Shown: in pieces, positions 7,764 through 37,013 of the stretch | Position numbering within the stretch: position 1 is the first letter of the stretch | How the letters are laid out: every line of letters starts with the position of its first letter | From: Halopenitus persicus | GTDB lineage: Archaea > Halobacteriota > Halobacteria > Halobacteriales > Haloferacaceae | Assembly (NCBI RefSeq): GCF_002355635.1 | Contig: NZ_AP017558.1 | Coordinates: forward strand, 2,542,001-2,606,000 | Direction: 5' to 3' | DNA length: 64,000 bases | Made by a program: the position numbers and the translations under genes | The notes under the pieces: model-generated | Database searches by the model: none | Told to the model about the DNA's origin: nothing | Seen by the model: the letters and a program-made list of their open reading frames with translations, nothing else

Positions 7764-7787
7764 CGACCGAACCTCTCATCCGGAGAA

Positions 7788-7800: not shown

Positions 7801-7842
7801 TACCTCGACCGCAACCCACATCCAGACGGTGGCACATACGCA

Positions 7843-7926
7843 ATGAGACAAGCGACCACACAGTTAGCGATCCGCCAGGGGCTCGTCAGTCAGGGACCGA
7901 TCCGCAGGGGGGCGATGGCCGAATGA
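7843..7926 (+). CDS. possible 27-codon upstream ORF overlapping the ligase start
   Basis: The ATG at 7843 opens a short frame (MRQATTQLAIRQGLV...) ending in a TGA that overlaps the next start codon as ATGA (7923-7926). A G-rich stretch (aggggggcgatgg) just before 7923 could be a Shine-Dalgarno site for reinitiation, and ggtgg at 7829 may serve the short frame. Genes that begin ATGA create such an overlap automatically, so chance is a real alternative. Confidence 0.25.
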   Translation: MRQATTQLAIRQGLVSQGPIRRGAMAE

Positions 7927-9239: not shown

Positions 9240-9272
9240 GGGTCCCGCCGGGGACACGGGGAAACATTCAGT

Positions 9273-9311
9273 ATGGTTCCATCTGTTGGAACGCATAGAG
9301 AAGACTCATGA
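9273..9311 (+). CDS. possible 12-codon upstream ORF before the fusion gene
   Basis: The short frame MVPSVGTHREDS ends in a TGA overlapping the start codon of the next gene as ATGA (9308-9311). No TATA box stands at the spacing expected for a start at 9273 and no clear Shine-Dalgarno precedes it, so support is weak. Confidence 0.18.
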   Translation: MVPSVGTHREDS

Positions 9312-11644: not shown

Positions 11645-11682
11645 AAGCGAATCGGTTCGACCACGCCAACCGGAGTGTACGT

Positions 11683-11759
11683 GTGAGCAGGCTCCGTGTA
11701 AGTCGGCTTTGCGTGAGCAGGCTCCGTGTAAGTCGGCTTTGCGTGAGCAGGCTCCGTGT
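11683..11759. repeat. 30-bp tandem repeat, about 2.6 copies
   Basis: Head-to-tail units begin at 11683, 11713 and 11743 (last one partial) in the convergent gap between the fusion gene and the permease gene. No hairpin-plus-T-run terminator is visible. Confidence 0.9.
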
Positions 11760-11840
11760 GGACTGGCCGCGTTCACGCACCGTGTTGGAAAACCGTCGAC
11801 CGCGTCGCCGAAGCGAACGGCGTTCGAACCGGGAGCGCCC

Positions 11841-12686
11841 CTACCGCTGGCGGAGCAGTTCGCTGATGACGATGAGCGAGATGCTGAACAGCAGCACCAT
11901 CGCGCTGATCGCGTTGATCACCGGGTCGGTCCCGTGTTGGACCTTCGACCAGATGTAGATCGGGAGCGTGTTCTCGACGCCGCTGGTAAAGAAGGCGATC
12001 AGGAAGTCGTCGAAGGAAAGCGTGAACGCGAACAGTGCCCCGCTGATGATCCCGGGCATCAGGATGGGCAGGGTCACCCGGCGATAGGTCTGCCACTTGC
12101 TGGCGCCCAGGTCGCGGGCTGCCTCCTCGAGCTCGGGATCGAACCCGCGCAGGCGCGCGCTCACGGTAATGAGGACGAACGGGGTCACGAAGACGAGCTG
12201 GCCGAGCATCACGGTGCGAAGCGACGTGTTGAACCCGATCATGTTGAACCAGAGCAGCAACGCGATCCCGAGGATGAGCCCGGGAATCGTCATCGGCGCG
12301 ATGACGAGCGCGCGGAACAGCCCCTTCCGCCGGAAGCTGCCGCGGACCAGAGCGATCGCCCCGAGCGTGCCGAGGATCGTCGCACCGGTGGTGACGAACG
12401 CGCCCACGTAGAGGCTGTTGAGCGTTGATTGGATGAGCCGGTCGTCGTTGACCATCTGGACGTACCACTGCATCGTGAACCCGTCCCACGGGAAGCCGGA
12501 GAAGGTCCCCTGCTCGAAGGAGAAGAGGATCAGGACGGCGATCGGCGCGTAGAGGAATCCGAAGACGAGCACGGCCCAGACCGGCATCCAGTATCCCCCA
12601 ACGGCGTTCAGCAGGGTGTCGATCGGTGACTGGCCCGAGGACTCTTCGGCGGCGGTCCCGTCGGACGTCGCGGCGTCGACGCTCAT
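11841..12686 (-). CDS. potC: ABC transporter permease, PotC type (transporter 1)
   Basis: The 281-residue inner-membrane protein has about six transmembrane helices and the EAA loop (EEAARDLGASKWQTYRRVTLP, near 190-210) that docks onto the ATPase. The C-terminus carries the PotC signature VINAISAMVLLF. It starts one base after the stop of the PotB gene, so the two are translationally coupled. With the divergent PotD and PotA genes it makes a spermidine/putrescine-class importer. This class also moves other organic amines and amino acids, so the substrate is not fixed by sequence. Confidence 0.9.
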   Translation of the reverse strand: MSVDAATSDGTAAEESSGQSPIDTLLNAVGGYWMPVWAVLVFGFLYAPIAVLILFSFEQGTFSGFPWDGFTMQWYVQMVNDDRLIQSTLNSLYVGAFVTTGATILGTLGAIALVRGSFRRKGLFRALVIAPMTIPGLILGIALLLWFNMIGFNTSLRTVMLGQLVFVTPFVLITVSARLRGFDPELEEAARDLGASKWQTYRRVTLPILMPGIISGALFAFTLSFDDFLIAFFTSGVENTLPIYIWSKVQHGTDPVINAISAMVLLFSISLIVISELLRQR

Positions 12687-12687
12687 T

Positions 12688-13584
12688 TCAGAACATCTCC
12701 TCCACGTCGGTGTAGCCCATCAGTCCCCAGAGGACGCCGCCGACTACAAGCATCAGGACGCTGCCGAGGGCTGCCCCGAGCGGCCAGTCGCTCCCGATAC
12801 CGAAGGCGTACGCGATCCGGGTTCCAACGAACAGCTCTCCCCCGCCGATCATCGCTGGCACGATGTACGCACCCATGCTGAAGATGAACACGAAGATGAT
12901 TCCGCCGACCAACCCGGGGATCGAGAGCGGGAGAACGATCCGCTTGAACACCTCGCGGCGACTCGCTCCCAGGTCATAGGCGGCCTCGATCAGCGATTCG
13001 TCGAGCTTCTCGAGGCTCGTGTACAGCGGGAGGATCATGAAGGGCAACCAGAGGTAGGTCAGCCCGAGCCAGATCGAGAACTTGGTGTTGAGGAGCCAGC
13101 CGATCGGCTCGTTGATGATCCCGATCCAGACCAGCAGCCCGTTGAGCACGCCTTCGGTGCCGAGAATGATCTGCCAGCCGTACACGCGCACGATGTAGTT
13201 CGTCCAGAAGGGGATCATCACGAGCACGAGCAGGACGTTCTTGTACTGCCCGCCGAACCGGGCGATGTAGTAGGCGAACGGATACGCGACGACGATCGCC
13301 GTCGCGGTCGTCACCAGCGCGATCAGCGTCGTGTTGACGAACGCCACCCGGTTGGCGGATCTCGTGAACACCGCGGTGTAGTTACTGAGGCTGAAGTCCA
13401 ACGTTAACGCGAGGCTTTCCATTCCGGTCGTGGCGATGTAGAACATGATCACCACGGGGGCCAGGAAGAAGAGGACCTCGAGGATCAGGATCGGCCCGCC
13501 GGTCACGAGAAAGCTGTTCGACTCGCGGACGCGATCGAGTATGGTTCGAAGTATGGTATCTGTTCTACTGTGAGTCTCCACCAT
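12688..13584 (-). CDS. potB: ABC transporter permease, PotB type (transporter 1)
   Basis: The 298-residue permease has six predicted helices, the PotB-typical PFWTNYIVRVYGWQIILG segment, and an EAA loop (IEAAYDLGASRREVFKRI). The start at 13584 (MVETHSRT) is preferred over an upstream in-frame TTG because the TATA box at 13608-13618 is centred 28 nt upstream, giving a leaderless mRNA. It is the first gene of the potBC operon, divergent from potD-potA across a 226-nt control region. Confidence 0.9.
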   Translation of the reverse strand: MVETHSRTDTILRTILDRVRESNSFLVTGGPILILEVLFFLAPVVIMFYIATTGMESLALTLDFSLSNYTAVFTRSANRVAFVNTTLIALVTTATAIVVAYPFAYYIARFGGQYKNVLLVLVMIPFWTNYIVRVYGWQIILGTEGVLNGLLVWIGIINEPIGWLLNTKFSIWLGLTYLWLPFMILPLYTSLEKLDESLIEAAYDLGASRREVFKRIVLPLSIPGLVGGIIFVFIFSMGAYIVPAMIGGGELFVGTRIAYAFGIGSDWPLGAALGSVLMLVVGGVLWGLMGYTDVEEMF

Positions 13585-13607
13585 ACTCCCCTTTGATCGA
13601 ACTCTAT

Positions 13608-13618
13608 CCAATATATCT
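13608..13618 (-). promoter_or_regulatory. TATA box of the potBC operon (transporter 1)
   Basis: The minus-strand sequence AGATATATTGG is centred about 28 nt upstream of the ATG at 13584. Confidence 0.6.
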
Positions 13619-19967: not shown

Positions 19968-21632
19968 ATGGGTATGCTCCACAACCGCGGTCCGCTACTC
20001 ACGATCGACGTCGGAGACAGGGAGACCTCAGAGGAGGACATCGCCGAGATCAACGAACGGTACATCGGGGGGCGGGGCGTCGGGACCCGGCTCGCGCACG
20101 AGCGGATCCCGTTCGACGCCGACCCCCTGGGTCCGGAAAACCGGCTCGTGTTCACGACGGGGCCGATGCAGTCGTCGACGATGAGCTTCACCGGGCGGAT
20201 GAACGTCACCGGCGTCTCGCCGCTGACCGACGGTCTGCTCTCGAGCAACGCCGGCGGCTTCATGTCCCGCAACTTCGCCGACACGGGATACAGCGCGGTC
20301 GAAATCACCGGCGAGAGCGACGAGCTGATCGCCGTTCACGTCCGCGACGACGGGATCGAGTTCGAGGCCGTCCCCGAGCTGGCCGGCGAGACGGTCGGCG
20401 ACACCGTCGCCCATCTCGAGGCGGAACGCGGCATCACCGCCGACCAGACCGCCATCATCGGCCCGGCCGGCGAGAACGGGGTCCGGTTCGCCTCCATCAT
20501 GACCTCCGAGGAGCGCGCGTTCGGCCGCGGCGGGCTCGGGGCGGTCCTCGGGGCGAAGAACGTCAAGGCGATCACCTTCGAGGGCGACTCGGCGCCCGAG
20601 ATCGAGATCCCCGCCACCCAGATGGAGGTCCACCGCGAGGCCGCCACCGACGACAACATCATGAAGCGGCAGGGGACGGTGGCCGTGATGGACCTGGCCA
20701 ACGCGATGGAGGGGCTCCCCTCCTACTACTTCTCCGAGCGCGAGTTCGCGGGCGTCGAGGGGATCAACGGCTCGGCCGTCGAGGAGAAGAAGTACAAGAA
20801 GGGCACCTGTTCACAGTGTGCCTTCGCGTGCAAGCTTCCGACGCGGGACGAGGAGCGCGGGGTCGAGACCGAGGGTCCCGAATTTGAGGTCGCGATGGCG
20901 TTCGGATCGAACTCCGGCGTCGACGACATCGTCGACGTGATGCAGTCGAACGAGCTGTGTGACCAGTACGGCCTCGACGCGATCTCCGCCGGCAACACCG
21001 TCGCTGCCTACCTCGCCAGCGAGGACGAGTTCGGGAACGTCGACCTCATCCACGAGACCGTCGAGAAGATCGCCCGCCGTGAGGGCGTCGGCGACCTCCT
21101 CGCGGAGGGCATCGCGAGGTGCCACGACGAGCTCGGGGTCGGGAACTGGTCGGTCAAGGGAATGGACTTCGCGGCCCACGAGGGACGCGTCCTCCACGGA
21201 CAGGGGCTCTCGTACGCCGTTTCCAACCGCGGCGCGGACCACATGTACGCGACCTTCTACTCCGTCGAGTATCCCCTCGTTCCCGAGGAGGACGCCCTCG
21301 ATCCCGAGGGAACGCTCGGCAAGGCCGACCGCCTGGTCGAGCGCGAGAACATGATGGCGCTCAACGACGCGGGCGTCGTCTGCAAGTTCTCCCGGGACTA
21401 CATGAGCCCCGACCGCTACGAGGCGCTCTTCGGCGCGGACTTCGAGGACCTCCTCGCGGTCGGCGGCCGGATCGTCACCCTCGAGCGCCACTTCAACAAC
21501 CAGCGCGGCGTCGACCGCGAGGACGACACGCTCCCGTACGACCTGCCGGACCTCGAGGAGGCCCTCGGGGAGTACTACGACGCCCGCGGCTGGGAGGACG
21601 GCGTCGTTCCCGACTCGGCCGTGCCGGCCTGA
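19968..21632 (+). CDS. tungsten-containing aldehyde:ferredoxin oxidoreductase family protein
   Basis: The 554-residue AOR-family enzyme oxidises aldehydes to acids with ferredoxin as acceptor, using tungstopterin and one 4Fe-4S cluster. Cluster cysteines are C281, C284 and C288 (CSQCAFAC) and C472 (GVVCKF). The N-terminal pterin-binding domain shows GGRGVGTRLAHE and NAGGFMSRNFADTGY, and CDQYGLDAIS (331-340) is the conserved DxxGxD-like region. A second ATG two codons in (19974) is an equally possible start. Among amine deamination genes it could dispose of aldehydes alongside the NAD-dependent dehydrogenase; that is inferred. Confidence 0.88.
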   Translation: MGMLHNRGPLLTIDVGDRETSEEDIAEINERYIGGRGVGTRLAHERIPFDADPLGPENRLVFTTGPMQSSTMSFTGRMNVTGVSPLTDGLLSSNAGGFMSRNFADTGYSAVEITGESDELIAVHVRDDGIEFEAVPELAGETVGDTVAHLEAERGITADQTAIIGPAGENGVRFASIMTSEERAFGRGGLGAVLGAKNVKAITFEGDSAPEIEIPATQMEVHREAATDDNIMKRQGTVAVMDLANAMEGLPSYYFSEREFAGVEGINGSAVEEKKYKKGTCSQCAFACKLPTRDEERGVETEGPEFEVAMAFGSNSGVDDIVDVMQSNELCDQYGLDAISAGNTVAAYLASEDEFGNVDLIHETVEKIARREGVGDLLAEGIARCHDELGVGNWSVKGMDFAAHEGRVLHGQGLSYAVSNRGADHMYATFYSVEYPLVPEEDALDPEGTLGKADRLVERENMMALNDAGVVCKFSRDYMSPDRYEALFGADFEDLLAVGGRIVTLERHFNNQRGVDREDDTLPYDLPDLEEALGEYYDARGWEDGVVPDSAVPA

Positions 21633-23848: not shown

Positions 23849-24381
23849 CTGCTCCGATCGTCGCCGAACGGACGCCCGATCACCGGCGAGCCCTTCCTCA
23901 CGCTCGCCGTCGTTCCGTGGACGCGTTCGATCTGCCCGCCGAGTAGTCGCCGTCCACCCATCCCTCATCGTCTTTCGAAACTGACCGGTATGTGAATTCA
24001 TATGAATAACTATGATAGATTATGTCCCGCAACCGATCCGTCGCACGATACGGTCCGAGCGCGACCGGTCATCCGGCGAACGGTACCTCGACAGATATTG
24101 GTGATTCAAGGCCATATATCGTCATCCGTGACGGGTTCGTTCATCTCCTGCGGGCCGTTCATCCGAACCATCTCAGCGTTCGATCGGGAGTCGCTCCACT
24201 TCTCGACGATGTTATCATATTTTTATACTATATTAAAATAGGAGACGTTCTGCCGATGGAGGCGGAGTACGGACGACCGCATCGTGCCGAACGGCGACCC
24301 GTCTGCTTCCGCCCGCTCGGGACGAACGGCGCGCCCGGACGGTCCGAACCGGCCGGGTCGACGGGTCCGGATTTCGACAGC
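23849..24381. other. intergenic region with AT-rich patch, no clear gene
   Basis: About 530 nt without a supported gene. A very AT-rich patch lies at 24208-24242. The plus frame in phase with the mutase gene is open from 24022, but its 130 residues do not look like a fold. On the minus strand a frame ending at 24105 reads NIVEKWSDSRSNAEM then VRMNGPQEMNEPVTDDDIWP. It has no proper start and may be a gene fragment or chance. Confidence 0.35.
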
Positions 24382-24388
24382 GTTTATG
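24382..24388 (+). promoter_or_regulatory. TATA box of the phosphohexomutase gene
   Basis: The sequence gtttatg is centred 27 nt upstream of the ATG at 24412, arguing for a leaderless start there. Confidence 0.6.
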
Positions 24389-24411
24389 ACCTATGTTCAC
24401 TACTGGCGCCC

Positions 24412-25827
24412 ATGGACGGGATAACCTTCGGCACCGGCGGTTGGCGGGCGGCGGGAGACGAGTTCACGGACGAGCGCGTACGGGCGGTTGGGCAGGCCGT
24501 CGCGACGTATCTCCGGGAGACCGAATCGGATTCGGGCGGCACGGTCGCGGTGGGCTACGACGCCCGAGCCACCTCGGAGGACGCCGCCGAGAGCCTCGCG
24601 GACGTCCTGTCGGGCAACGGGTTCGATGTGCTTCTCACTGACCGGGACCGCCCGACGCCGGTGCTCGCGTACGCCGTCGCCGACCGCGGTCTCGACGGCG
24701 GGGTGATGGTGACCGCCTCACACAACCCGCCGGAGTACAACGGCGTGAAGTTCATCCCGTCGGACGCGAACTCCGCGATGCCGGCGGTCACCGAGGCCAT
24801 CGAGGCGCGCCTCGAGCCGCCGCGCAGCCTCCCGAAGGCGGATCACGGCTCGGTCGAGCGGTTCGACCCCGTTTCGGCCCACGCCACCCACGCGAGGGAC
24901 CTCGTCGCCGACTACCTCGATATCGATCTCTCGGGGTTGACGGTGGTGTACGACGCGATCCACGGCAGCGGGCGCGGGGTCACGGACGCGCTGCTGGAGG
25001 ACGCGGGGGCGACCGTGATCCGCCGGCGGTGTGACCGGGACCCGACCTTCGGCGGCCAGGCACCGGAGCCGGGCCCGGAGACGCTCGCGGGCCTCCCCGA
25101 GGCGGTGGCCGACCACGACGCCGACCTCGGGATCGCCAACGACGGCGACGCCGACCGGATCTCGATCTGCACGCCCGAACGGGGCGTGCTGAACGGCCAC
25201 CTCCTCTTTGCGGGGGTCTTCGACGCGCTGCTCGAGGACGCGGGAGCGAGGGGGCCGGCGGTCCGCACCGTCTCGACGACGTTCCTGATCGACCGGATCG
25301 CCGCGGCCCACGACGTCGCCGTCCACGAGGTGCCCGTCGGGTTCAAGTGGGTCGCCGACGGGATGGTCGCCCACGACGGGCTCTTCGGCGGCGAGGAGTC
25401 CGGCGGGTACACGGTCCGGGGCCACATCGGCACGAAGGACGGCGTGCTGATCGCCCTCCTCGCCGCTGCTGCGGCCGCCGCGGAGCCCTTCGACGACCGG
25501 ATCGACCGTCTCTTCGAGACCCACGGCCGGATCTACGCGGACAAGCGGAGCGTGGCGTGTGAGGAGGCGGCGAAACCCCGGCTCGTCGAGGCGCTCGAGG
25601 CCGACGTTCCCGACCTGATCGCGGGCGAGCCGGTCGCCGAGACCGTCACCGTCGACGGGTTCAAGTTCCTGCTCGATGACGGCTCGTGGATCCTCCTCCG
25701 CCCGAGCGGAACCGAGCCGAAGATCCGCGTGTACGCGGAGACCACCGATCCGGACCGGCTCGAGCCGCTCCTCGAGGCCGGCAGCGACCTGGTCGCCGCC
25801 AGGCTCGGCGGGACGAAAGAGGACTGA
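24412..25827 (+). CDS. phosphoglucomutase/phosphomannomutase family protein
   Basis: The 471-residue alpha-D-phosphohexomutase has four domains: N-terminal FGTGGWR, phosphoserine loop TASHNPPEYNG (Ser103), metal loop NDGDADR (near 244-250), sugar loop GGEESGG, and the C-terminal phosphate loop RPSGTEPKIRVY. It interconverts hexose 1- and 6-phosphates (or glucosamine/mannose phosphates). Together with the ROK kinase and the UDP-sugar-type glycosyltransferase nearby, it could supply activated sugar, though no nucleotidyltransferase is seen. The start is chosen from the TATA spacing and the family N-terminus. Confidence 0.9.
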   Translation: MDGITFGTGGWRAAGDEFTDERVRAVGQAVATYLRETESDSGGTVAVGYDARATSEDAAESLADVLSGNGFDVLLTDRDRPTPVLAYAVADRGLDGGVMVTASHNPPEYNGVKFIPSDANSAMPAVTEAIEARLEPPRSLPKADHGSVERFDPVSAHATHARDLVADYLDIDLSGLTVVYDAIHGSGRGVTDALLEDAGATVIRRRCDRDPTFGGQAPEPGPETLAGLPEAVADHDADLGIANDGDADRISICTPERGVLNGHLLFAGVFDALLEDAGARGPAVRTVSTTFLIDRIAAAHDVAVHEVPVGFKWVADGMVAHDGLFGGEESGGYTVRGHIGTKDGVLIALLAAAAAAAEPFDDRIDRLFETHGRIYADKRSVACEEAAKPRLVEALEADVPDLIAGEPVAETVTVDGFKFLLDDGSWILLRPSGTEPKIRVYAETTDPDRLEPLLEAGSDLVAARLGGTKED

Positions 25828-25960: not shown

Positions 25961-25980
25961 TCGTGTTAGTATCACGTTCT

Positions 25981-27012
25981 ATGGCTGCGGCTCTCACGGT
26001 AGACGGTGTCATGAAGCGGTTCGGGGACGTGGTCGCCTGCGACGACGTGTCCTTCGAGCTGGAACGGGGGGAGTTCTTCTCGCTGCTCGGCCCGAGCGGC
26101 AGCGGCAAGACCACGACGCTCCGGATCGTCTCGGGGTTCGAGACGCAGAACGACGGCACCGTCCACATCGACGGCCAGGTCGTCAACGACGTGCCGCCGA
26201 ACGAGCGGGACGTCAACCTGGTCTTCCAGGAGCTCGCGCTGTTCTCGCACCTGACGGTCCGTGAGAACCTGGCGTTCGGATTGAAACGCGACGGCGTCGA
26301 CGCGGAGACGATCGACGCCCGCGTCGCCGAGTACCTCGAACTGGTCGACCTCGAGGGGTACGAGGACCGCGACGTCCGGGACATGTCCGGCGGCCAGCAG
26401 CAGCGCGTCGCGCTCGCCCGCGCGCTCATCAAGGAGCCGCCGATCGTGCTGCTCGACGAGCCGCTGGCGAGCCTCGACCGAAAGCTTCGCAAGGAGCTGC
26501 GGGTCGAGCTGGCCCGGATCCAGTCGGAGACCGGGGTCACGTTCTTTTACGTCACACACGACCAGGAGAGCGCGATGAGCATGTCGGACCGGCTCGCGAT
26601 CATGCGCGACGGGACGATCCAGCAGATCGGAACGCCGGAGGAGGTGTACGACGAGCCGGCCAATCCGTTCGTCGCCGACTTCATCGGTGACGCGAACGTT
26701 TTCTCCGGCCGGATCGGCGTCGAGGACGGGGTCGCGACCCTCACGGACGGCGACCTCTCGGTTCCGCTTCCGGGCGTCGACGCGGTCGGCAAGGCGACCG
26801 TCGTCGTTCGTCCCGAACAGGTCCGCCTGCGCGGGCCGGACGCGGACGGCCTCCCGGTTCGGATCACGAACAAGGAGTACCACGGCTCCTACACGCAATA
26901 CATCGCGGCGACCGCGGACGACCGTCAGATCCAGATCGAGTCCACCGGGACCGACTTCGAAATCGACGACGAGGCGTCGGTGACGGTCGCGGACGCACGG
27001 GTGTTTCAGTGA
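25981..27012 (+). CDS. potA: ABC transporter ATPase, PotA type (transporter 2)
   Basis: The 343-residue ATPase has Walker A GPSGSGKTT (near 37-45), VFQELALF, signature MSGGQQQRVALARA, Walker B IVLLDEP, switch His in YVTHDQESA and a C-terminal TOBE domain (VVVRPEQVRL). It is monocistronic and lies 4.6 kb from the potC-potB-potD cluster at 31623-34588, which lacks its own ATPase, so the two probably form one transporter. The start at 25981 agrees with the TATA box; an earlier in-frame ATG at 25963 would precede the expected transcription start. Confidence 0.9.
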   Translation: MAAALTVDGVMKRFGDVVACDDVSFELERGEFFSLLGPSGSGKTTTLRIVSGFETQNDGTVHIDGQVVNDVPPNERDVNLVFQELALFSHLTVRENLAFGLKRDGVDAETIDARVAEYLELVDLEGYEDRDVRDMSGGQQQRVALARALIKEPPIVLLDEPLASLDRKLRKELRVELARIQSETGVTFFYVTHDQESAMSMSDRLAIMRDGTIQQIGTPEEVYDEPANPFVADFIGDANVFSGRIGVEDGVATLTDGDLSVPLPGVDAVGKATVVVRPEQVRLRGPDADGLPVRITNKEYHGSYTQYIAATADDRQIQIESTGTDFEIDDEASVTVADARVFQ

Positions 27013-27121: not shown

Positions 27122-28084
27122 ATGATGGACTTCGTGGGCGTCGACCTCGGGGCAAGCAACGTTCGTGCGGCCGTCGGGGATCGGACCGGCGAAATCCACG
27201 CCACTGCACGTGCACGAACGCCGGCCGGTCCGACCGGCGAGGCGGTCACCGACGCGGTTCTGGAAGTCGCCACGGCGGCGTGTGCGGCCGCCGACGTCGA
27301 TCCGACCGACGTGGCGGGCGCCGGCGTCGCATCGATGGGGCGACTCGACCTCGCGGTCGGCGCGGTCGCGAGCGCGCCGAACGTCGACGCGGACGTGGGG
27401 CCGATCCAGCTCGTCGGTCCGCTCGCGTCGCTGCTCGATCTCGACCGGGACGCCGTCACCCTGCGCAGCGACACGCAGGCGGGCGCGGTCGGGGAGCGGT
27501 TCCACGCCCACCCGGACGTCGCGAATCTGGTCTACCTGACCATCTCCTCGGGAATCGGTGCGGGCGTGATCGCTGACGGCGAGCCCCTCTCGGGACGGGA
27601 CGCCAACGCCGGCGAGGTCGGCCATATTACGATCGCCCCCGAGGGCGTGATGACCTGCGGCTGCGGCCGCGAGGGGCACTGGGAGGCGTACTGTTCGGGG
27701 AACAACGTTCCCCGGTTCGCCCGGGCGCTACACGAGCGCGACCCCGTCGACACGGCGGTCCCGATCGCGGACGAGGGGTTCGACGCGGCGGACGTCTACG
27801 CACACGCGGGCACGGACGCGTTCGCGGACCGCGTCCTCGAGCGCGTGACGGCGCTGAACGTCCGCGGGGTCGCGGCCGTCGTTCACGCGTACGCGCCGCA
27901 GGTCCTCGTGCTCGGCGGCGCGGTGGCGACCAACAACCCCGAGACCGTCGTGGACCCGATTCGCCGGCGCCTTCCCGGGGAGCTCGTGGTCGATATGCCC
28001 GAGGTCGCGCTCGCGGAGCTCGGCGACGACGCCGCCCTCGCAGGCGCGCTCGCGCTGGCGATTCCGGAATCGGAACCGTCGTGA
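27122..28084 (+). CDS. ROK-family sugar kinase (glucokinase-like)
   Basis: The 320-residue ASKHA-fold kinase has the N-terminal phosphate loop GVDLGASNVRAAVGD and second phosphate motif LVYLTISSGIGAGVI. The ROK zinc signature appears as CGCGREGHWEAYCSG, with the metal His in GEVGHITI. ROK kinases phosphorylate glucose, N-acetylmannosamine or fructose. The second Met (27125) may be the true start; a TATA-like gataagtg lies 24-28 nt upstream. The stop codon is the first base triplet of a 23-bp tandem duplication. Confidence 0.88.
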   Translation: MMDFVGVDLGASNVRAAVGDRTGEIHATARARTPAGPTGEAVTDAVLEVATAACAAADVDPTDVAGAGVASMGRLDLAVGAVASAPNVDADVGPIQLVGPLASLLDLDRDAVTLRSDTQAGAVGERFHAHPDVANLVYLTISSGIGAGVIADGEPLSGRDANAGEVGHITIAPEGVMTCGCGREGHWEAYCSGNNVPRFARALHERDPVDTAVPIADEGFDAADVYAHAGTDAFADRVLERVTALNVRGVAAVVHAYAPQVLVLGGAVATNNPETVVDPIRRRLPGELVVDMPEVALAELGDDAALAGALALAIPESEPS

Positions 28085-28170: not shown

Positions 28171-28202
28171 CCTCAGAACCGCTTGCCCTCAGAACCGCTC
28201 GC
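28171..28202. repeat. 16-bp tandem repeat spanning the aldehyde dehydrogenase stop codon
   Basis: Two copies, 28171-28186 and 28187-28202, differ at one base. The stop (28189-28191, minus strand) lies in the gene-proximal copy and is duplicated in the distal one. Confidence 0.9.
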
Positions 28203-29700
28203 CGCCGCTGCTGTAGAACCAATCGTCGGGATAGGGGTACCACCACTCCTGCAGCGACGGGTTCCAGTCGATGACTCCCATCTTCGTCCGGCGGAACGCG
28301 TTCAGGCCCTCGCTGCCGAGCTCCCGGCCGATCCCGGAGTGCTTCCACCCGCCGAAGGGGATCGCGTCGTTGTCGATCATCGGGTTGTTGACCCAGACCA
28401 TTCCCGCCTCGAGTTCCTCGTAGGAGCGCATCGCCTCCTCGAGGTCGGTGGTGAACACCGAGGCGCCGAGGCCGAACTCGGTGTCGTTCGCGAGCTCGAG
28501 CGCCTCCTCGAACGAGGAGACCGAGCAGATCGGCGCCACCGGACCGAACGTCTCCGCCTTCATGACCTCCATCTCCGGCGTCACGTCGGTCAGCACGGTC
28601 GGCTCGTAGAACCAGCCGACGTCCCGGTCCGGCGGGACGCGCCCGCCGTGTTCGACGGTGGCGCCGGCCTCGACCGCCGACCGGACCTGCCGGTCGACCT
28701 CGTCACGGGCGCGCTCGTCGACCAGTGGGCCGATCTCGGCGTCCTCCAGGCCGTTGCCGATCCGGAGACCGCTCGCCATCTCGACGAGCCCGTCGACGAA
28801 CTCGTCGTGAACGGCCTCGTGGACGAAGAACCGCTCGGAGGAGGTGCAGACCTGCCCGGAGAGGTGAAACGCCGCGGTCGCGGAGCCGGCGATCGCGACC
28901 TCCATCGGGGCGTGCTCGGAGACGATCATCGGGTCGTTCCCGCCCGCCTCGATGACGCTCGGCTTGATCCCCTCGGCGGCCGCCGCATTCACCTTCCGGC
29001 CGGTCTCGACGCCGCCGGTGAAGGCGATCGCGTCGGTGTCGGCCGACCGGATCAGCGACTGGGCGGTCTCTCCGTCGCCGGTGACACACGAGACCAGCCC
29101 CGCGGGAAGCTCGCTGAAGTGACGCATGAATCGCAGCGTCGACAGCGGCGTCCGCTCCGAGGGCTTGACGATCGCGGCGTTGCCGGCCGCCAGCGAGGCT
29201 GCGACCGTCCAGGCCGTCAGCAGGACCGGGAAGTTCGAGGGGACGATGTGGACGCTGACGCCGTAGGGGAAATACCGGTGAAACTGGAACGACTCCGGCT
29301 GCGTGGTGCCCGGGATCGACCCCTGGTCGTCGCGCGCCAGCTCGGCGTAATAGCGGAAGACCGGACCGACGTTGGCGATCTCGCCCTCCGCCTCCGGGTA
29401 CGGCTTCCCGTGTTCCCGCGTCATCAGTTTCGCGTCCGTCTCGTGGTCGGCCGATTCGATCGCGTCGGCGACGTCGTGGAGCGCGGCGGCCCGGGTCGTC
29501 TGGTCCGTCCGTTCCCAGTCGGCCTGCGCCCGGACGGCACGGTCGACCACCGACTCGACCTCCGCCGGGTCACAGACGGCGATCTCGCCGACCGGCTCCT
29601 CGGTGGCGGGATCGATCACGTCCAGGCTGCCGTCCGACCGGCTCTCGCGGAACTCGTTTTCGCGAAAGACCTGCCGGCCGAAGGGGTCGAACCCGGTCAT
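28189..29700 (-). CDS. NAD(P)-dependent aldehyde dehydrogenase
   Basis: The 503-residue ALDH-superfamily enzyme has PSNFPVLLTAW (154-164, catalytic Asn), KPSERTP (179-185, cofactor Lys), FTGGVETGR, general base Glu251 in EAGGNDP and nucleophile Cys285 in GQVCTSSERF. These match broad-specificity aldehyde or semialdehyde dehydrogenases (gamma-aminobutyraldehyde, succinate semialdehyde, glycolaldehyde). It is the last gene of a three-gene operon: its ATG overlaps the cupin stop as ATGA. In the proposed amine route it would oxidise the aldehyde left after oxidation or transamination. Confidence 0.9.
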   Translation of the reverse strand: MTGFDPFGRQVFRENEFRESRSDGSLDVIDPATEEPVGEIAVCDPAEVESVVDRAVRAQADWERTDQTTRAAALHDVADAIESADHETDAKLMTREHGKPYPEAEGEIANVGPVFRYYAELARDDQGSIPGTTQPESFQFHRYFPYGVSVHIVPSNFPVLLTAWTVAASLAAGNAAIVKPSERTPLSTLRFMRHFSELPAGLVSCVTGDGETAQSLIRSADTDAIAFTGGVETGRKVNAAAAEGIKPSVIEAGGNDPMIVSEHAPMEVAIAGSATAAFHLSGQVCTSSERFFVHEAVHDEFVDGLVEMASGLRIGNGLEDAEIGPLVDERARDEVDRQVRSAVEAGATVEHGGRVPPDRDVGWFYEPTVLTDVTPEMEVMKAETFGPVAPICSVSSFEEALELANDTEFGLGASVFTTDLEEAMRSYEELEAGMVWVNNPMIDNDAIPFGGWKHSGIGRELGSEGLNAFRRTKMGVIDWNPSLQEWWYPYPDDWFYSSGGERF

Positions 29701-30146
29701 CGGATCATATACACCTTCCGAACCGTCTCCTCGACGCGACAGGTGCCGCTCCAGCCGGCCGGGAACAGGACCGTGGTCCCGGGTTCGATATCGATCACGG
29801 TGCCGTCCTCGTGGGTGTACGTCGCCCGCCCCTCGAGGAAATAACAGAACTCGTCGCGGTCGACCTTGCACCGCCACGTGCCGGGGGTGCAGGTCCACAC
29901 GCCGCTTTCGGAGCGACCGTCCGGGCCCTTGTGGATGACCGTGCCGGCGGTGCGCGACTCGCCCTCGATCGGCTCGTCGACGACGCCCCAGTCATCGAGA
30001 TCCGCGTCCGCGAGGGCGGCCGGATCCTGGAGGACGCTCGCGGACGGCGCCCCGCCGTCAGCCACCGCCGACGCCTCGTCGTCAGCCGTTCCCGCCGCCG
30101 ACGCCTCGTCGTCAGCCGTTCCCGCCGCCACGTCGTCGTCAGCCAT
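29697..30146 (-). CDS. small cupin-domain protein (DUF861/EutQ-like)
   Basis: The 149-residue protein has an acidic N-terminal half (1-45) containing an in-frame 10-residue duplication (AAGTADDEAS), then a single cupin barrel: VIHKGPDGRSESGVWTC, FCYFLEGRATYTHEDG, IEPGTTVLFPAGWSGTC. The pattern resembles the DUF861 cupins of ureidoglycine aminohydrolase and EutQ types; few metal-ligand histidines are visible, so catalysis is uncertain. The gene overlaps both neighbours (8 bp with the glycosyltransferase, 4 bp with the dehydrogenase), so it is firmly part of that operon. Confidence 0.8.
   Translation of the reverse strand: MADDDVAAGTADDEASAAGTADDEASAVADGGAPSASVLQDPAALADADLDDWGVVDEPIEGESRTAGTVIHKGPDGRSESGVWTCTPGTWRCKVDRDEFCYFLEGRATYTHEDGTVIDIEPGTTVLFPAGWSGTCRVEETVRKVYMIR
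30067..30126. repeat. 30-bp in-frame tandem duplication inside the cupin gene
   Basis: Two identical 30-bp units (30067-30096 and 30097-30126) encode repeated 10-residue acidic segments in the disordered N-terminus. Confidence 0.92.
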
Positions 30147-31425
30147 GGGTCTCCAGGACGTCCTCGAGCAGCGTCGCTGCCTTCTTCCGGCCGTCGCTGG
30201 ACTGCATGTCCTCGGCGGTACGGTCAACGTTCTCCCGGATCGTCTCGTCGGTGAGACACGTCCCGATCGCTCCCGCGAGCTCGTCGTCGGTCCAGTCCGA
30301 CCGATGCAGCTTGATCCCGTGGTCGGTCTCGTCGACGCGCGTGGCGTTGTCGTGGCCGTCCCAGACGTACGGCATCACGATCGCCGGCGTTCCGTAGTAG
30401 AGACACTCGTTGAACGTGTTGTTGCCGCCGTGGTGGATCACCACGTCGGCCCGTTCGATGACCGTCTGCTGGGGGAACCAGCTCTCGATCGCCACGTTGC
30501 CGGGGACCTCGACGTCGTCGTAGGCGTCCTCGTAGTCGCCGACGTTGACGAGACAGCGGTACTCCTGCGTCCCGAGGAACTCGATCAGCCGCTTCATCAG
30601 GTCCGTGTCGCCGGCGCCGAGGCTGCCGAAGCTGAGGTACAGCAAGGGTGCATCGTCGTCGGCTTCGAGATCCGGGACCTCGTAGGACTCGTTCTCCTCG
30701 CGGATGCACCCGTTGAGGTACGCAAAGCGGTCCGGATCGAGCTCGTTCCAGCGGTCCCAGCGGAGCCGCTCGGGGTACTTCAGGAGGTTCAGGTACGGCG
30801 ACGTCTCGTAGAACAGTCCCCGCGGGTACGGGTCCTCGCCGTGATCGGCCAGGAACTCGTTGAACCGCTCGTGGACGTCCCCGATGACCTCCTCGTAGCG
30901 CTGTTGGAACTCGTGGTAGTGCTCGACGTCGTCCGCGCGGGCGCCGGACAGGTGCGGCGGAATGTTCGGGTCGGGGATCTCGTTCTCCGAACACGACGTG
31001 ATCCGGACCCAGGGGACGCCGTACTGCTTGGTGGAGGGGAAGAGGATCACGTTGTCGACCACGATCAGGTCCGGATCGATCTCCTCGAGGACCTCGGGAA
31101 GCTCCGTCTCGGCCCACTCCGCGGAGGCCACGATCGCCTCGTAGGTCTCCTCGACGTAGTTGTCGAGCTGGTCGATCGGGGCCTTGTCGAAGTTCGGGAT
31201 GTGGGTGTTGATGAACTCCTCCCACCCCGCGTCGGCGTCCGGGTCGGACATCGGCACGTAGTGCTCCTCGAAGCCGTACTCCTCGAAGACGCCCTCCATG
31301 CTCGGGTCGCAGATGAACACCGGCTCGTGGCCGCGCTCGCGACACACTTGAGCGATCCCGACCGAGTTGAGCGCTGGACCGTACGCCGCCTCCGTGAAGA
31401 AGGCGATCGTGGCGCCGTCGCTCAT
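30139..31425 (-). CDS. UDP-glycosyltransferase-like (GT1/MGT-type) enzyme
   Basis: The 428-residue GT-B-fold protein has an acceptor-binding N-terminal half and a C-terminal donor-binding half: LYLSFGSLG, WFPQQTVIERADVVIHHGGNNTFNE (two segments), then YYGTPAIVMPYVWDGHDNATRV. The FPQQ and HHGG motifs are those of UDP-glucosyl/glucuronosyltransferases and macrolide glycosyltransferases, which glycosylate small lipophilic acceptors. A Shine-Dalgarno GGAGGTG (31430-31436) lies 4 nt before the ATG. Upstream is a 26-codon ORF whose TGA overlaps this start. Cupin and aldehyde dehydrogenase genes follow with overlaps. Its acceptor is unknown; cell-wall or protein glycosylation is less likely for this family. 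Confidence 0.85.
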   Translation of the reverse strand: MSDGATIAFFTEAAYGPALNSVGIAQVCRERGHEPVFICDPSMEGVFEEYGFEEHYVPMSDPDADAGWEEFINTHIPNFDKAPIDQLDNYVEETYEAIVASAEWAETELPEVLEEIDPDLIVVDNVILFPSTKQYGVPWVRITSCSENEIPDPNIPPHLSGARADDVEHYHEFQQRYEEVIGDVHERFNEFLADHGEDPYPRGLFYETSPYLNLLKYPERLRWDRWNELDPDRFAYLNGCIREENESYEVPDLEADDDAPLLYLSFGSLGAGDTDLMKRLIEFLGTQEYRCLVNVGDYEDAYDDVEVPGNVAIESWFPQQTVIERADVVIHHGGNNTFNECLYYGTPAIVMPYVWDGHDNATRVDETDHGIKLHRSDWTDDELAGAIGTCLTDETIRENVDRTAEDMQSSDGRKKAATLLEDVLETHG

Positions 31426-31502: not shown

Positions 31503-31524
31503 GGTTCGAGGGGACAGACCGATA

Positions 31525-31534
31525 GGATATAAAA
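31525..31534 (-). promoter_or_regulatory. TATA box of the glycosyltransferase-cupin-dehydrogenase operon
   Basis: The minus-strand sequence TTTTATATCC is centred about 28 nt upstream of the ATG of the upstream ORF at 31502 and about 105 nt from the glycosyltransferase ATG. Confidence 0.65.
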
Positions 31535-31622
31535 CTCACGTTACACCGGAGCGTTCCGGCGCCACGACGTCCGTCATCGAACGGACGTCGAACCACGATC
31601 GCGGCGGTCGCGGCCGTTCCGG

Positions 31623-32462
31623 TCAGTCGATCCGGGGATCGAACCGGGCCGCGAACACCGCCACGAGCAGCCCCGACAGCAGCAACATCGCGCCGATGGC
31701 GTTCATCTCCGGCGTCAGGTGGCGGCGAAGCCGGTCGAAGATCAAAAGCGGCATCGTGAACGTGTCCGGACCGCTCACCATGAACGTGATGATGAACTCG
31801 TTGAGCGAGAGCAGCATCGCGAAGATGAACCCCGAGACGACCGACGGGAAGATCTGCGGGAGGACGACGAGGACGAACGTCTCGGCGCGGGTCGCGCCGA
31901 GATCGCGCCCCGCCTCGGTGATCGCCGGCGGGAAGGACCGCACTGCGGCGTAGATGATCAGGAACGTGTAGGGGAACACGTAGATCACGTGGCCGACGAG
32001 CACGGAGAGGAACCCGAAGTCGATACCGATGACCGAGAGGTACAACAGCAGCGCGATCCCGATGAAGATGACCGGGATGAACATCGGCAACAACAGCGAT
32101 CCGATGAGCCACCGGATCCAGTCGCCGGCGTCGTTCGCCTCCAACCGCGAGAATCCGTATGCGGCGGGAAGGGCGAGCAGCGTGGCGACCACCGCGCTGG
32201 CGACCATCAGCCGAACGGACAACCACAGCGCACTCCAGAACTCGGCGTCCGCCGCCAGATCCCGGTACCACTCCAGAGTGAACCCGGTCAGCGGGAAGAA
32301 CCCGAGGTCGTTGGCGTTGAACGACATCACGATCACGAGCGCCATCGGAACGTAGAGGAACGCGATCGTGAACCCGGCCAGCCAGCGGGTGACGTCCAGG
32401 TCCGACGGGACCCGGGCATCGACGGTATCGCCCAGCGTTCCGATCGCGGATTTTCGCGCCAT
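31623..32462 (-). CDS. potC: ABC transporter permease, PotC type (transporter 2)
   Basis: The 279-residue permease has six predicted helices, EAA loop (EAGRDLGATRAETFVLVVLPQIFPS, two halves) and the PotC terminal signature EMNAIGAMLLLSG. The start at 32462 overlaps the potB stop (TGATG). An in-frame ATG 30 nt upstream lies inside potB and is less likely. It is the last gene of the potD-potB-potC unit of transporter 2. Confidence 0.9.
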   Translation of the reverse strand: MARKSAIGTLGDTVDARVPSDLDVTRWLAGFTIAFLYVPMALVIVMSFNANDLGFFPLTGFTLEWYRDLAADAEFWSALWLSVRLMVASAVVATLLALPAAYGFSRLEANDAGDWIRWLIGSLLLPMFIPVIFIGIALLLYLSVIGIDFGFLSVLVGHVIYVFPYTFLIIYAAVRSFPPAITEAGRDLGATRAETFVLVVLPQIFPSVVSGFIFAMLLSLNEFIITFMVSGPDTFTMPLLIFDRLRRHLTPEMNAIGAMLLLSGLLVAVFAARFDPRID

Positions 32463-33340
32463 CAGGTCATCACCTTCCGAAGGGTGAGCCACCGCGAGAG
32501 CCCGGCCAGCACCACGAGGACGAACGCGAACAGGACGACGCTATACGCCGCCCCGAGCGGCCAGTTGAAGCTGTCCTTGAACTGGTTGACGAGGACGTTC
32601 CCGTACCACAACGTCCGGGGGGATCCGACGAGTTCGGGCGTCACGTACGCGCCGATCGCCCGTCCGAAGATGAAGACGAACGACAGGACGATCCCGGGCA
32701 TCGCGAGCGGCAGGATCACGTATCGAAGGACCTCGAACCGGTTCGATCCGAGGTCGTACGCCGCCTCGATCTGCGAGCCCGGGATGGCGTCGACGGACCC
32801 GTACATCGCGAACAGCGAGTACGGGAGGTAGATGTACACCATCGTTGCGATCACCGCGAACTCGGTGTACAGGAGGCTTATCGGCTCCGCGACCGCGCCG
32901 ACCCCGGTCAACACCTCGTTGATGAGCCCCTTGTCGCCGAGCATCAGCATCCACGCCCAGGTCCGGACGATGTAGTTCGTCCAGAACGGGGCGATCGCGA
33001 CGAGGATGAACAGCGCGCCGGCCCGCCCGTCGAGCGTCTGGCCGCCGTACCACGCGACCGGGAACGCCATCGCGGTCGTGACGACCGCGATCACGAGCAC
33101 CTTCGCCAGCGTCTTGGCGAAGATCGCCACCGTCCGCGTCGAGTCGAACAGCGCCTGGTAGTGCTCCAGCGAGAAGCCCGGATTCCAGAGGTTCCCCTCC
33201 ATCGGCCAGAAGCTGAAGTAGATCGCCCACACGAGCGAGAACAGCCCGATCCCGACCATCACGGCGACTGCCGGCGCGGTCAGTGCGAGATCGCGGAGCG
33301 TCCGACCCCGGCCGTGAGAGCGGATTCGCGGGAGCTTCAT
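32462..33340 (-). CDS. potB: ABC transporter permease, PotB type (transporter 2)
   Basis: The 292-residue permease has six helices, the PotB segment APFWTNYIVRTWAWMLMLG and EAA loop IEAAYDLGSNRFEVLRYVILP. It starts 33 nt after the solute-binding protein gene and overlaps potC by one base. It resembles its transporter 1 counterpart in architecture, not closely in sequence, so the two systems are not a recent duplication. Confidence 0.9.
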   Translation of the reverse strand: MKLPRIRSHGRGRTLRDLALTAPAVAVMVGIGLFSLVWAIYFSFWPMEGNLWNPGFSLEHYQALFDSTRTVAIFAKTLAKVLVIAVVTTAMAFPVAWYGGQTLDGRAGALFILVAIAPFWTNYIVRTWAWMLMLGDKGLINEVLTGVGAVAEPISLLYTEFAVIATMVYIYLPYSLFAMYGSVDAIPGSQIEAAYDLGSNRFEVLRYVILPLAMPGIVLSFVFIFGRAIGAYVTPELVGSPRTLWYGNVLVNQFKDSFNWPLGAAYSVVLFAFVLVVLAGLSRWLTLRKVMT

Positions 33341-33373: not shown

Positions 33374-34588
33374 CTATCCCTTGAGCTCCTGCCACATCTG
33401 CTGGGCGGTTTCGAGCTCCTCGTCGCCGAAGTAGCGGCGCATCCGGAGCCGGTCCTCGTTCTCGAGGACGACCGACCGGTGATCGCGCTCGGTTTCGGTC
33501 ATGTCGTCGCGCGCGTCGAGGTTGATCGGGAGGTTCCCCGCGTTTCGCATCTGCTGGATCGACGCGTCCGGCGAGGAGTAGTGGTCCATGAACTCGACCG
33601 CGAGGTCCGGATTGGGCGCGTCCGCGGCGAGCTGGTGGGCGTCCGCGTAGCCGTCGGTCCCCGCCGGCGGAACGGCCATCTCGACGGGATGGCCCTGGTC
33701 CATCGCCAGGAAGCCGGTGAGGTCCCACCCGTGTTGGACGACGACCTCCTCGTTGGCGATCAGCTTCAGGTGCTGGTCCTGCGTCGACCAGAGCGTGCGG
33801 TAGGAGGGGAAGGCTCCCTCCAGGGCGTCCCGACAGGCCTCGAGGTCGCTCGGCGGGTGTGGATGGTCGTCCCCGAGGTAGTATCCCGCGTTGGCGAAGG
33901 CCGCGATCGGCCAGTCGCGCATCGCGATCCGCCCGTCGAGGTCGTTGGACTCGATCGTTTCCGGGTCGAACAGGTAGTCCCAGGAGAGCTCGTCCGGCTC
34001 CTCGTCGATGACGTCGGTGCGGTACATCGGCCCGGTCATCCCGTACGCGTACGGGATCGCGGTCTGCGTCCCGTCGATGACACACCCCGGGGCGGTCCGT
34101 GCGCGCTCGACCAGGTTCCCGAAGTGGCTCATGTCGTCGGTCGGGATCGGTTCGACGAGGTCGGCGTTCCAGAGCGGCTCGACCCAGTTGTTGGTCACGC
34201 CGATCACGTCGACGTCGCCCTGATACTGCGTCCGCATCAGGCCGACCGCCTCGGAGTTCGTCGTCAGGCTGATCACCTCGACGTCGACGCCGTGTTCCTC
34301 CTCGAACGGCTCGACGATCGAGTCCGGGTAGTAGAAGTTGTACCCGAGGATGGTCAGGGTTTGGTCCCCGGATCCGCTGCTTCCCTGGGTCGCGCCGTTT
34401 CCGCTCCCGTCGCCGTTTCCGTCCCCGTTCCCGTCACCGTTTCCGTTCCCGCCCCCGTTTCCACCGTCTCCCAGGCAGCCGGCGAGTCCCGTTCCCAATC
34501 CGCCAACCGCACCGAGCGTCGCGAGGAATCCACGCCTGTCGTTCGACGGCGTCGGATCTGCGCGACTCGACGATCGCGTTCTTGTCAT
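33374..34588 (-). CDS. potD: PotD-type solute-binding lipoprotein (transporter 2)
   Basis: The 404-residue binding protein has a Tat signal (NDRRGFLATLGAVGG, 16-30), a lipobox (TGLAGC, near 38) and then a Gly/Asn/Asp linker of about 35 residues built from GNGDGNGDG repeats before the mature domain (TLTILGYNFYYPD). The long hydrophilic linker probably spans the S-layer space. It is transcribed from a TATA box about 30 nt upstream, divergent from the IclR gene 171 nt away. Confidence 0.9.
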   Translation of the reverse strand: MTRTRSSSRADPTPSNDRRGFLATLGAVGGLGTGLAGCLGDGGNGGGNGNGDGNGDGNGDGSGNGATQGSSGSGDQTLTILGYNFYYPDSIVEPFEEEHGVDVEVISLTTNSEAVGLMRTQYQGDVDVIGVTNNWVEPLWNADLVEPIPTDDMSHFGNLVERARTAPGCVIDGTQTAIPYAYGMTGPMYRTDVIDEEPDELSWDYLFDPETIESNDLDGRIAMRDWPIAAFANAGYYLGDDHPHPPSDLEACRDALEGAFPSYRTLWSTQDQHLKLIANEEVVVQHGWDLTGFLAMDQGHPVEMAVPPAGTDGYADAHQLAADAPNPDLAVEFMDHYSSPDASIQQMRNAGNLPINLDARDDMTETERDHRSVVLENEDRLRMRRYFGDEELETAQQMWQELKG

Positions 34589-34622: not shown

Positions 34623-34728
34623 CCCTTGTGAACGGGTGGCAGTAGACGCCGCGGATGACGAGGCGCCGGGCGGGATCGTGGATGTCGAACGGAAGATGCC
34701 GAGTACGGCCGAGTTTCGTATATCTCAA

Positions 34729-34737
34729 ATCTTATGA
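34729..34737 (+). promoter_or_regulatory. TATA-like element of the IclR gene
   Basis: The sequence atcttatga is centred about 27 nt upstream of the ATG at 34760, supporting that start over earlier in-frame ATGs. Confidence 0.5.
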
Positions 34738-34759
34738 GCACGGGGCCCGATCGACACCT

Positions 34760-35527
34760 ATGGGATCGGATTCCGGCGACGGACGGCGGCTCGAAACGGT
34801 CCGAAACGCCTTCGAGATCGTGGAGTCCCTCAAGCGGCGCGAGGGCGCGAGGCTCACGGACCTGGCGACCGAGTTCGACGTCTCCGACGGAACGATGCAC
34901 GCGTATCTGAACACGCTGCGTGCCGACGGGCTAGTATATAAGGCCGACGGCGAGTACCGTCTCTCGTTGGAGTGGTTCACGCTGGGGACCGAGCTTCGCG
35001 AACGGATGCCGGTCTACCGCCACGGGAAGGGGCCGGCGGACGATCTGGCGCGACGAACGGGTGACCTCGTCTACCTGGCGGTCGAGCAGCGCGGGCGCGT
35101 ATACTACCTCTATCCGACGCGCGGCGACGACGCCCCCGAGCCCGCGACGTCCGTCGGAACGGTTCGACCGCTTCACGCCGTCTCCGCCGGCAAGGTGCTG
35201 TTGGCGGCGATGCCCGACGGGAAGCGAGAGAGCGTCCTCGAGAACCTCACTTTCGAGCCGGTCACCGAGAAGACCATCGTCGACCGCGAGGAGTTCCGCG
35301 AGGAGCTCGACCGCATCACCGACCAGGGATACGCGCTCAACGACGAGGAGGAGTTCCTCGGTTCCCGCACCGTCGCGACGAGCATCGCCCACCCCGACCG
35401 CGGCGTGGCCGGCGCGATCTGCGCCAGCGGGCCGAAGACCCGGTTCGATGACGACTACATCGACGACCTGCTCCCGGCCCTCAAGGAGACGGCCAACCGG
35501 ATCGAGATCAACCTCCAGCGGTCCTGA
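34760..35527 (+). CDS. IclR-family transcriptional regulator
   Basis: The 255-residue regulator has an N-terminal winged HTH (RLETVRNAFEIVESLKRREGA through MHAYLNTLRADGLV, about 10-60) and a C-terminal GAF-like effector domain (VRPLHAVSAGKVLLAAMPD, GYALNDEEEFLGSRTVATSI). IclR proteins usually bind small carboxylates or aromatics and control the adjacent operon. It is divergent from potDBC and upstream of the FAD oxidase, so it is the obvious candidate controller of both. The start is fixed by the TATA spacing. Confidence 0.92.
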   Translation: MGSDSGDGRRLETVRNAFEIVESLKRREGARLTDLATEFDVSDGTMHAYLNTLRADGLVYKADGEYRLSLEWFTLGTELRERMPVYRHGKGPADDLARRTGDLVYLAVEQRGRVYYLYPTRGDDAPEPATSVGTVRPLHAVSAGKVLLAAMPDGKRESVLENLTFEPVTEKTIVDREEFREELDRITDQGYALNDEEEFLGSRTVATSIAHPDRGVAGAICASGPKTRFDDDYIDDLLPALKETANRIEINLQRS

Positions 35528-35834: not shown

Positions 35835-37013
35835 ATGCGGATCTGCATCGTTGGAGCGGGGATCGCGGGCTGTCACGCGGCCTTCGATCTCGCCGCCGAC
35901 CACGACGTCACGGTGCTCGACAGGGTCGGGATCGCCGCCGAGGCGACCGGATACTCGGCGGGGCTCGTCGCACCCACGCAGTATTACCCCGACCGCCCCG
36001 CGATCGCGCGCCACGCGAACGGCTTCTTCGCCGACTTCGACGGATCACACGGCTTCGAGTTCACCGAACGGGACCGGCTCGACGTGATGACTGACGAGGA
36101 GGCCGAGACCGCCCGATCGACCGCCGCGAAACTCGCCGACGCCGGCTTCCCCGTGGATTATTTCGAGACTGACGAGATTTCGGACCGGTATCCCCGGATC
36201 CGACCGGACGACTTCGCCGGAGCGGTCCGATACGGGGACACCGGTTGGGTGGACCCGTACACTTACGCGACCGCGCTCAAGGCGGCCGCCGAGGTCGACG
36301 GCGCCGCGTTCGAGATCGGCGTCGAGGTCGAGGACGTTCGGCTCGGACGGAGCGACGACCACGCCGTCCGGACTGACGACCACGCCGTCCGGACTGACGA
36401 CCACGTTATTCGTACCGACGACGGCCGCTACGAGGCCGACGCGATCGTCCTCGCCGCCGGGTGGCGGACTCGGGACCTGCTGCCCGGCGACCTGGAGGTT
36501 CCGATCCGTCCGTATCGGACGCAGTGCGTCGTCCTCGAACCCGAGACGCCGCTGGAGGACTCGACCCCGACCGGCCGGATCGGTAGCGAGCACCTCTACT
36601 TCCGCCCGGAGCACAACGGCGACCTGCTGATCGGCGGCGCACACGACACGATCGCGGACCCGCGAACCGCCTCGACGGACGCCGACGAATCGTTCACCCT
36701 CGATGTCGCCGGATTCGCCCCGACGTTCTTCGAGGGGTTCGACGACGCCGGGTTCCTCAACGGCTGGGCCGGGGTCGACACGGCCTCCCCCGACACCCGC
36801 CCGATCATCGACTCGCCGGTCGGCGCGCCCGATTCCCTGGTCGTCGCGACCGGGTTCAACGGGCTCGGCGTGATGACCTCGCCGGTCGTCGGACCGACCG
36901 TCCGGCAGCGGCTGACCGGGGAGCCGGCACCGTTCCCGGCCGAAACGTTCGCCGCGGATCGCTTCGACGACGTCGGCACTGACTTCGAGTACGTCTCCAC
37001 CTCCGAGGTGTGA
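35835..37013 (+). CDS. FAD-dependent amine/amino acid oxidoreductase (DAO family)
   Basis: The 392-residue flavoprotein has the dinucleotide motif GAGIAGCHAA (7-16), the second FAD strand VVLDR-type segment (VTVLDRVGIAAEATGYSAG), and the C-terminal DAO signature (GWAGVDTASPDTRPIIDSP then VVATGFNGLGVMTSPVVG). DAO-family members include D-amino acid, sarcosine, glycine and gamma-glutamylputrescine (PuuB) oxidases. In this locus a PuuB-like role is possible. Residues 174-196 hold three in-frame copies of DDHAVRT, an insertion between core strands. T6 after the stop suggests termination. Confidence 0.87.
   Translation: MRICIVGAGIAGCHAAFDLAADHDVTVLDRVGIAAEATGYSAGLVAPTQYYPDRPAIARHANGFFADFDGSHGFEFTERDRLDVMTDEEAETARSTAAKLADAGFPVDYFETDEISDRYPRIRPDDFAGAVRYGDTGWVDPYTYATALKAAAEVDGAAFEIGVEVEDVRLGRSDDHAVRTDDHAVRTDDHVIRTDDGRYEADAIVLAAGWRTRDLLPGDLEVPIRPYRTQCVVLEPETPLEDSTPTGRIGSEHLYFRPEHNGDLLIGGAHDTIADPRTASTDADESFTLDVAGFAPTFFEGFDDAGFLNGWAGVDTASPDTRPIIDSPVGAPDSLVVATGFNGLGVMTSPVVGPTVRQRLTGEPAPFPAETFAADRFDDVGTDFEYVSTSEV
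36354..36410. repeat. 21-bp in-frame tandem repeat inside the oxidase gene
   Basis: Two perfect units (36354-36374 and 36375-36395) and a diverged third (from 36396) encode DDHAVRT, DDHAVRT and DDHVIRT. Confidence 0.93.

Follow-up and report, generated by a model that had tools for sequence, protein, structure and literature searches.

In Halopenitus persicus, a GT1-type glycosyltransferase (GT), a small cupin, and an aldehyde dehydrogenase (ALDH) are encoded in overlapping frames beside genes for amine uptake and oxidation, which raises the question of what a glycosyltransferase contributes at such a locus. The three genes (hereafter the triplet) lie within a window of 64,000 nucleotides, the whole stretch of DNA analyzed (contig NZ_AP017558.1, positions 2,542,001 to 2,606,000; Table 1). 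The tentative answer is that these genes provide the core enzymes of an amine-utilization cassette spread by horizontal transfer, with a probability of roughly 0.38 for this explanation taken jointly with all its parts.

Table 1. Features of the locus, in positions of the window (SBP, solute-binding protein).
Feature	Position	Strand	Remarks
PuuD-like gene	7134-7763		Same window, apart from the triplet
PuuA-like synthetase	7923-9239		Same window, apart from the triplet
Phosphohexomutase (GlmM/PGM-like), cassette-linked copy	24412..25827	+	Profile match
PotA-like ABC transporter ATPase	25963..27012	+	Profile match
ROK-family sugar kinase, glucokinase-like, cassette-linked copy	27122..28084	+	PF00480, 152 bits
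ALDH, NAD(P)-dependent, betaine-/amino-aldehyde dehydrogenase-like	28189..29700	-	503 aa; Pfam, alignment
Cupin, Cupin_3 (EutQ-like/DUF861), single-domain	29697..30146	-	149 aa; Pfam
GT, GT1-type (MGT/UGT-like, GT-B)	30139..31425	-	428 aa; Pfam, alignment
PotC-like ABC permease	31623..32492	-	Profile match
PotB-like ABC permease	32462..33340	-	Profile match
PotD/PotF-like SBP, amine-type binding protein	33374..34588	-	Profile match
IclR-family regulator	34655..35527	+	Profile match
DAO-type FAD amine oxidase, sarcosine/glycine-oxidase-like	35835..37013	+	Profile match

Each frame of the triplet opens with an ATG at the higher of its tabulated coordinates and its stop codon ends at the lower, giving overlaps of 8 bp between GT and cupin and 4 bp between cupin and ALDH, as the first-pass annotation had stated. 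The 8-bp overlap goes beyond chance, since it recurs in N. magadii, N. aibiense, Shinella, and Rhizobium. A gap of 197 bp separates the GT from the upstream permease gene. Within it, between potC and GT on the minus strand at about 31520-31535, a TATA-like sequence (TTTATATC) was spotted by eye and is a possible candidate for a separate promoter of the triplet, which is thus perhaps transcribed separately from potBCD.

At the thresholds used, orthologues of GT, cupin, and ALDH occur in an identical set of 8 of the 391 Halobacteria genomes. The bacterial survey covered 72,556 plasmid records, and the closest matches of all three proteins fall in the same 11 of these, including Rhizobiaceae and Ruegeria, after which identity drops from 56% to 37% for the GT, from 54% to 48% for the ALDH, and from 54% to 41% for the cupin. 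The nearest matches of the window GT belong to H. persicus and H. malekzadehii (95-96% identity). The gene-order search proposed by the first-pass annotation thus found the triplet in other haloarchaea, and the orthologues in other Halobacteria and in plasmid records rule out confinement to this strain; the reading of the three genes as one functional unit is supported, the set being conserved and no local accident. Two further archaeal MAG loci (L014 and L015) carry GT and ALDH with a whole or partial cupin. In the second, from a Haloarculaceae MAG, the cupin match consists of the C-terminal half alone, immediately after the GT (L015:2184-2339), possibly through truncation, frameshift, or an assembly fault.

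Rhizobiaceae and Ruegeria carry the genes as SBP-permease-permease-ATPase-GT-cupin-cupin-ALDH, with a PotDBCA-like transporter first. These operons also contain a divergent GntR gene and a second GT, which in at least three of them is followed by a second ALDH. More distant GT relatives (35-37% identity) are found in a Streptomyces, behind a Pot-type transporter, and in a Nonomuraea, ahead of an ALDH. Archaeal and bacterial transporter subunits show only remote similarity (about 27% for the SBP), so the substrate of the cassette may differ between hosts. In the GT tree, archaeal GTs form a single clade (99/97) that is sister to the first alphaproteobacterial GT, and the alphaproteobacterial paralogue and the actinobacterial GTs fall outside this grouping. 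Transfer from bacteria to archaea would be the simplest direction, though this is only suggested by a tree whose root is set by one very distant sequence.

The surroundings of the triplet agree with the amine locus that had been proposed from the initial reading, as they include a Pot transporter, a DAO oxidase, a gamma-glutamylputrescine-synthetase-like gene, and aminotransferases. Upstream lie the PotB-, PotC-, and PotD-like genes, the divergent IclR regulator, and the DAO oxidase; downstream, in facing orientation, lie the ROK kinase, the PotA-like ATPase, and the phosphohexomutase. An IclR gene is likewise divergent ahead of the GT in Natrialba/Natronorubrum, where DAO relatives with 46-56% identity are found near the cassette.

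The GT matches the Pfam profiles EryCIII-like_C (3.5e-18) and UDPGT (5e-10), both over cut-off, and its closest solved structures are the spider-mite enzymes UGT203A2 (E 3.7e-59, residues 8-427) and UGT202A2. Its score against the NCBIfam MGT model, 128.1 bits, is under the 260-bit cut-off. The GT1/MGT assignment made at first pass is nevertheless sound, as the best scores are of MGT/UGT type and not of envelope-polysaccharide type. The donor motif is intact (H332-GGNN..E340..W355-D356..D359-N360), with H332, E340, D356, D359, and N360 invariant from archaea to actinobacteria; E12 and D124 are also invariant in archaeal, proteobacterial, and actinobacterial relatives. The N-terminal catalytic histidine of GT1 enzymes, which deprotonates hydroxyls, is absent: Pro17 stands in its place in the window GT, and Pro or Ala in relatives. 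This histidine is replaced, beside an intact donor motif, in every full-length family member compared except the distant outgroup. An AlphaFold model of the GT (pLDDT 50, 7-sequence alignment) was set aside.

Loss of this histidine has a human parallel, with Pro40 at the corresponding position of UGT1A4 and Leu34 in UGT2B10, as Kubota in 2007 and Kerdpin in 2009 are said to have described. Both human enzymes are UGTs that glucuronidate tertiary amines (PMC5075577). The His-to-Pro change fits an amine acceptor because an amine, unlike a hydroxyl, needs no base, and judged from sequence it makes such an acceptor more plausible for the GT. The two pathways put forward at first pass, the masking of an intermediate as a glycoside and the degradation of a glycosylated amine, are conjectural. 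The loss of the histidine could instead signal another reaction.

The occurrence of the triplet beside amine importers in a few haloarchaea and in soil and marine bacteria suggests an undescribed breakdown of a sugar-capped amine, for which we infer the sugar, its N-linkage, the order of steps, the role of the cupin, and the removal of the sugar. An amine would be taken up by the polyamine-type ABC transporter, and the GT would use a nucleotide sugar to glycosylate that amine or a product derived from it, most likely at nitrogen. The sugar would act as a reversible cap, comparable to the gamma-glutamyl group of the Puu pathway, where capping stops the amino-aldehyde from cyclizing or reacting. 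The DAO oxidase or a transaminase would then produce an aldehyde that the linked ALDH would convert to the acid, and the cupin may be the partner of the GT, as a binding or isomerizing subunit. In archaea, the glucokinase-like ROK kinase and the phosphohexomutase would convert free hexose to hexose-1-phosphate for donor synthesis or sugar reuse.

Several observations count against this model. No glycosidase is annotated among the neighbor genes examined, so sugar removal is left unexplained, with spontaneous hydrolysis of the glycosylamine as a possible route. In addition, the PuuA-like synthetase of the same window makes an alternative cap available, and in alphaproteobacterial carriers ROK and mutase are absent beside the cassette. 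It is doubtful that, in archaea and bacteria alike, a His-less GT1 N-glycosylates an amine, the ALDH oxidizes the capped aldehyde, and a dedicated pair of glucokinase-like enzyme and mutase recycles the sugar into donor.

Alternatively, the GT may O-glycosylate a hydroxylated or aldehyde/hydrate intermediate for detoxification or storage, the ALDH providing a parallel detoxifying route. Most MGT/UGT relatives are detoxifying O-glycosyltransferases, and the two spider-mite UGTs as closest solved structures point the same way; yet the histidine that would deprotonate the hydroxyl is replaced throughout the family, and this explanation is considered somewhat unlikely.

The first-pass annotation had further suggested that the nearby ROK kinase and phosphohexomutase could feed sugar activation. 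Their membership in the unit stands for archaea, where they are co-duplicated and co-inherited with the triplet, whereas the role in sugar activation is one that we infer. The window ROK sequence retains the family motifs (cysteine/ExGH; here EVGH and CGCGREGH). The listed mutase frame comprises 601 aa from 24022 and is conserved only from about residue 130; the preceding part (24022-24411, the N-terminal 130 residues) is unconserved and interrupted by stop codons in a close relative; translation probably begins at the ATG at 24412. ROK kinases are near-universal in the class (358 of 391 genomes), usually as one copy, and two ROK matches at threshold occur in the class sample only in four Natrialba/Natronorubrum carriers. 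These carriers have a longer cassette, with an extra ROK and an extra mutase beside the GT; only one copy of either gene is present in N. chahannaoensis and in three Natrialba that lack the cassette. The cassette-linked copies, those of Halopenitus included, form a single clade in both the ROK tree (SH-aLRT 99) and the mutase tree (SH-aLRT 98). Thus, the duplicate copies and the cassette-linked clades indicate that GT, cupin, ALDH, ROK, and mutase are co-inherited in archaea, and the separate clade and extra copies rule out ROK as a mere ubiquitous neighbor. In Halopenitus itself, the cassette-linked ROK and mutase are the sole matches of their kinds in the genome at the thresholds used.

This co-inheritance suits salvage as well as donor supply. 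A further alternative is that the transporter imports a glycosylated amine or glycosylamine, which the GT, working in reverse, as GT1 reactions are reversible, splits into NDP-sugar and free amine, with ROK and mutase passing the hexose on and the ALDH finishing the breakdown. Such a route is improbable given an SBP that resembles PotD/PotF, unlike sugar-binding proteins, the simpler salvage that a glycosidase would offer, and the alphaproteobacterial cassettes that lack both sugar enzymes.

The cupin belongs to Cupin_3 (PF05899; EutQ-like, formerly DUF861; 9.6e-21, 73.7 bits against a gathering cut-off of 23.5), and by-eye inspection of the sequence alignment did not make the usual His-x-His metal site apparent. 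It is present as a tandem pair in alphaproteobacteria and is fused to the GT in Natrialba chahannaoensis, where a clean 7-bp deletion at the GT/cupin overlap has placed both in one 557-aa frame (L011:10001-11674); two species records concur on this fusion, perhaps from one assembly. The fusion, together with the histidine loss, is consistent with a GT that is no longer catalytic and, together with the cupin, serves the pathway as a subunit for sensing sugar nucleotides or as a chaperone. The invariant donor-site residues and the dedicated ROK and mutase copies that accompany the GT make this highly unlikely. An envelope GT caught by chance in an amine island, a notion to which its presence in only 8 of 391 Halobacteria genomes lends something, is largely refuted by the identical gene order in two domains, matching presence patterns, the GT-cupin fusion, and MGT-type scores, and an envelope enzyme as such is ruled out by profile scores and operon context.

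The ALDH matches Aldedh at 5.9e-144, and catalytic Cys285, Glu251, Asn156, and Lys179 are present in all aligned family members. Its best profile is BADH (TIGR01804), at 381.2 bits against an equivalog cut-off of 668.6, and it falls under every curated cut-off shown; the best PDB matches are plant BADH/AMADH. It thus resembles betaine- and amino-aldehyde dehydrogenases and differs from them in lying far under the equivalog cut-off and in having close orthologues only alongside the GT. The neighbors of second-tier ALDH relatives gave no pointer to a substrate.

Each protein of the cassette falls within a known family, with the GT lacking the histidine and scoring under the MGT cut-off and the ALDH under that for BADH. 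The GT shares its C-terminal donor motif and length with UGT203A2, YjiC, OleD, UGT1A4, and UGT2B10, aligns with UGT203A2 across 420 residues, and reportedly shares its His-to-Pro change with UGT1A4. It departs from MGT/UGT enzymes in lacking, like its whole subfamily, the catalytic histidine, in scoring under the NCBIfam MGT cut-off, and in being sited in catabolic operons. The small Cupin_3 proteins encoded in amine and taurine operons similarly adjoin FAD oxidases and transporters; in Shinella zoogloeoides, for example, the neighbors are an FAD oxidoreductase gene and Pot-type ABC genes. The cupin of the triplet differs in being paired or fused with a GT. No description of the cassette turned up in a search confined to open-access papers, and its novelty is provisional on that basis.

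In logic, the nearest known system is the Puu pathway, with which the cassette shares a Pot-type transporter, a DAO oxidase, an ALDH, and, by analogy, the use of a capping group. The Puu pathway employs a gamma-glutamyl ligase where the triplet has a GT; any cap added by the triplet would be a sugar, and the cassette adds a sugar kinase and a mutase. In bacteria, amines are known to receive a gamma-glutamyl cap ahead of oxidation; if the sugar-cap model is true, capping with a glycosyl group would provide a second solution, present in two domains and spread by horizontal transfer, and the GTs would constitute a prokaryotic GT1 set without catalytic base, of use in the study and synthesis of N-glycosides. 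PuuA- and PuuD-like genes also occur in the window, about 20 kb from the triplet, and adjoin the cassette in N. magadii. A second amine island at 3184-13611 encodes an HDAC-like deacetylase, an ornithine-cyclodeaminase-like protein, a class III aminotransferase, a PuuD-like amidotransferase, a glutamine-synthetase-like (PuuA/GS III) protein, an APH-aminotransferase fusion, and ABC permeases. An aldehyde ferredoxin oxidoreductase is encoded at 19968-21632 of the window, and near the cassette of Natronorubrum aibiense lies a distant relative (31%), accompanied by genes for an amidase and for an SSF symporter.
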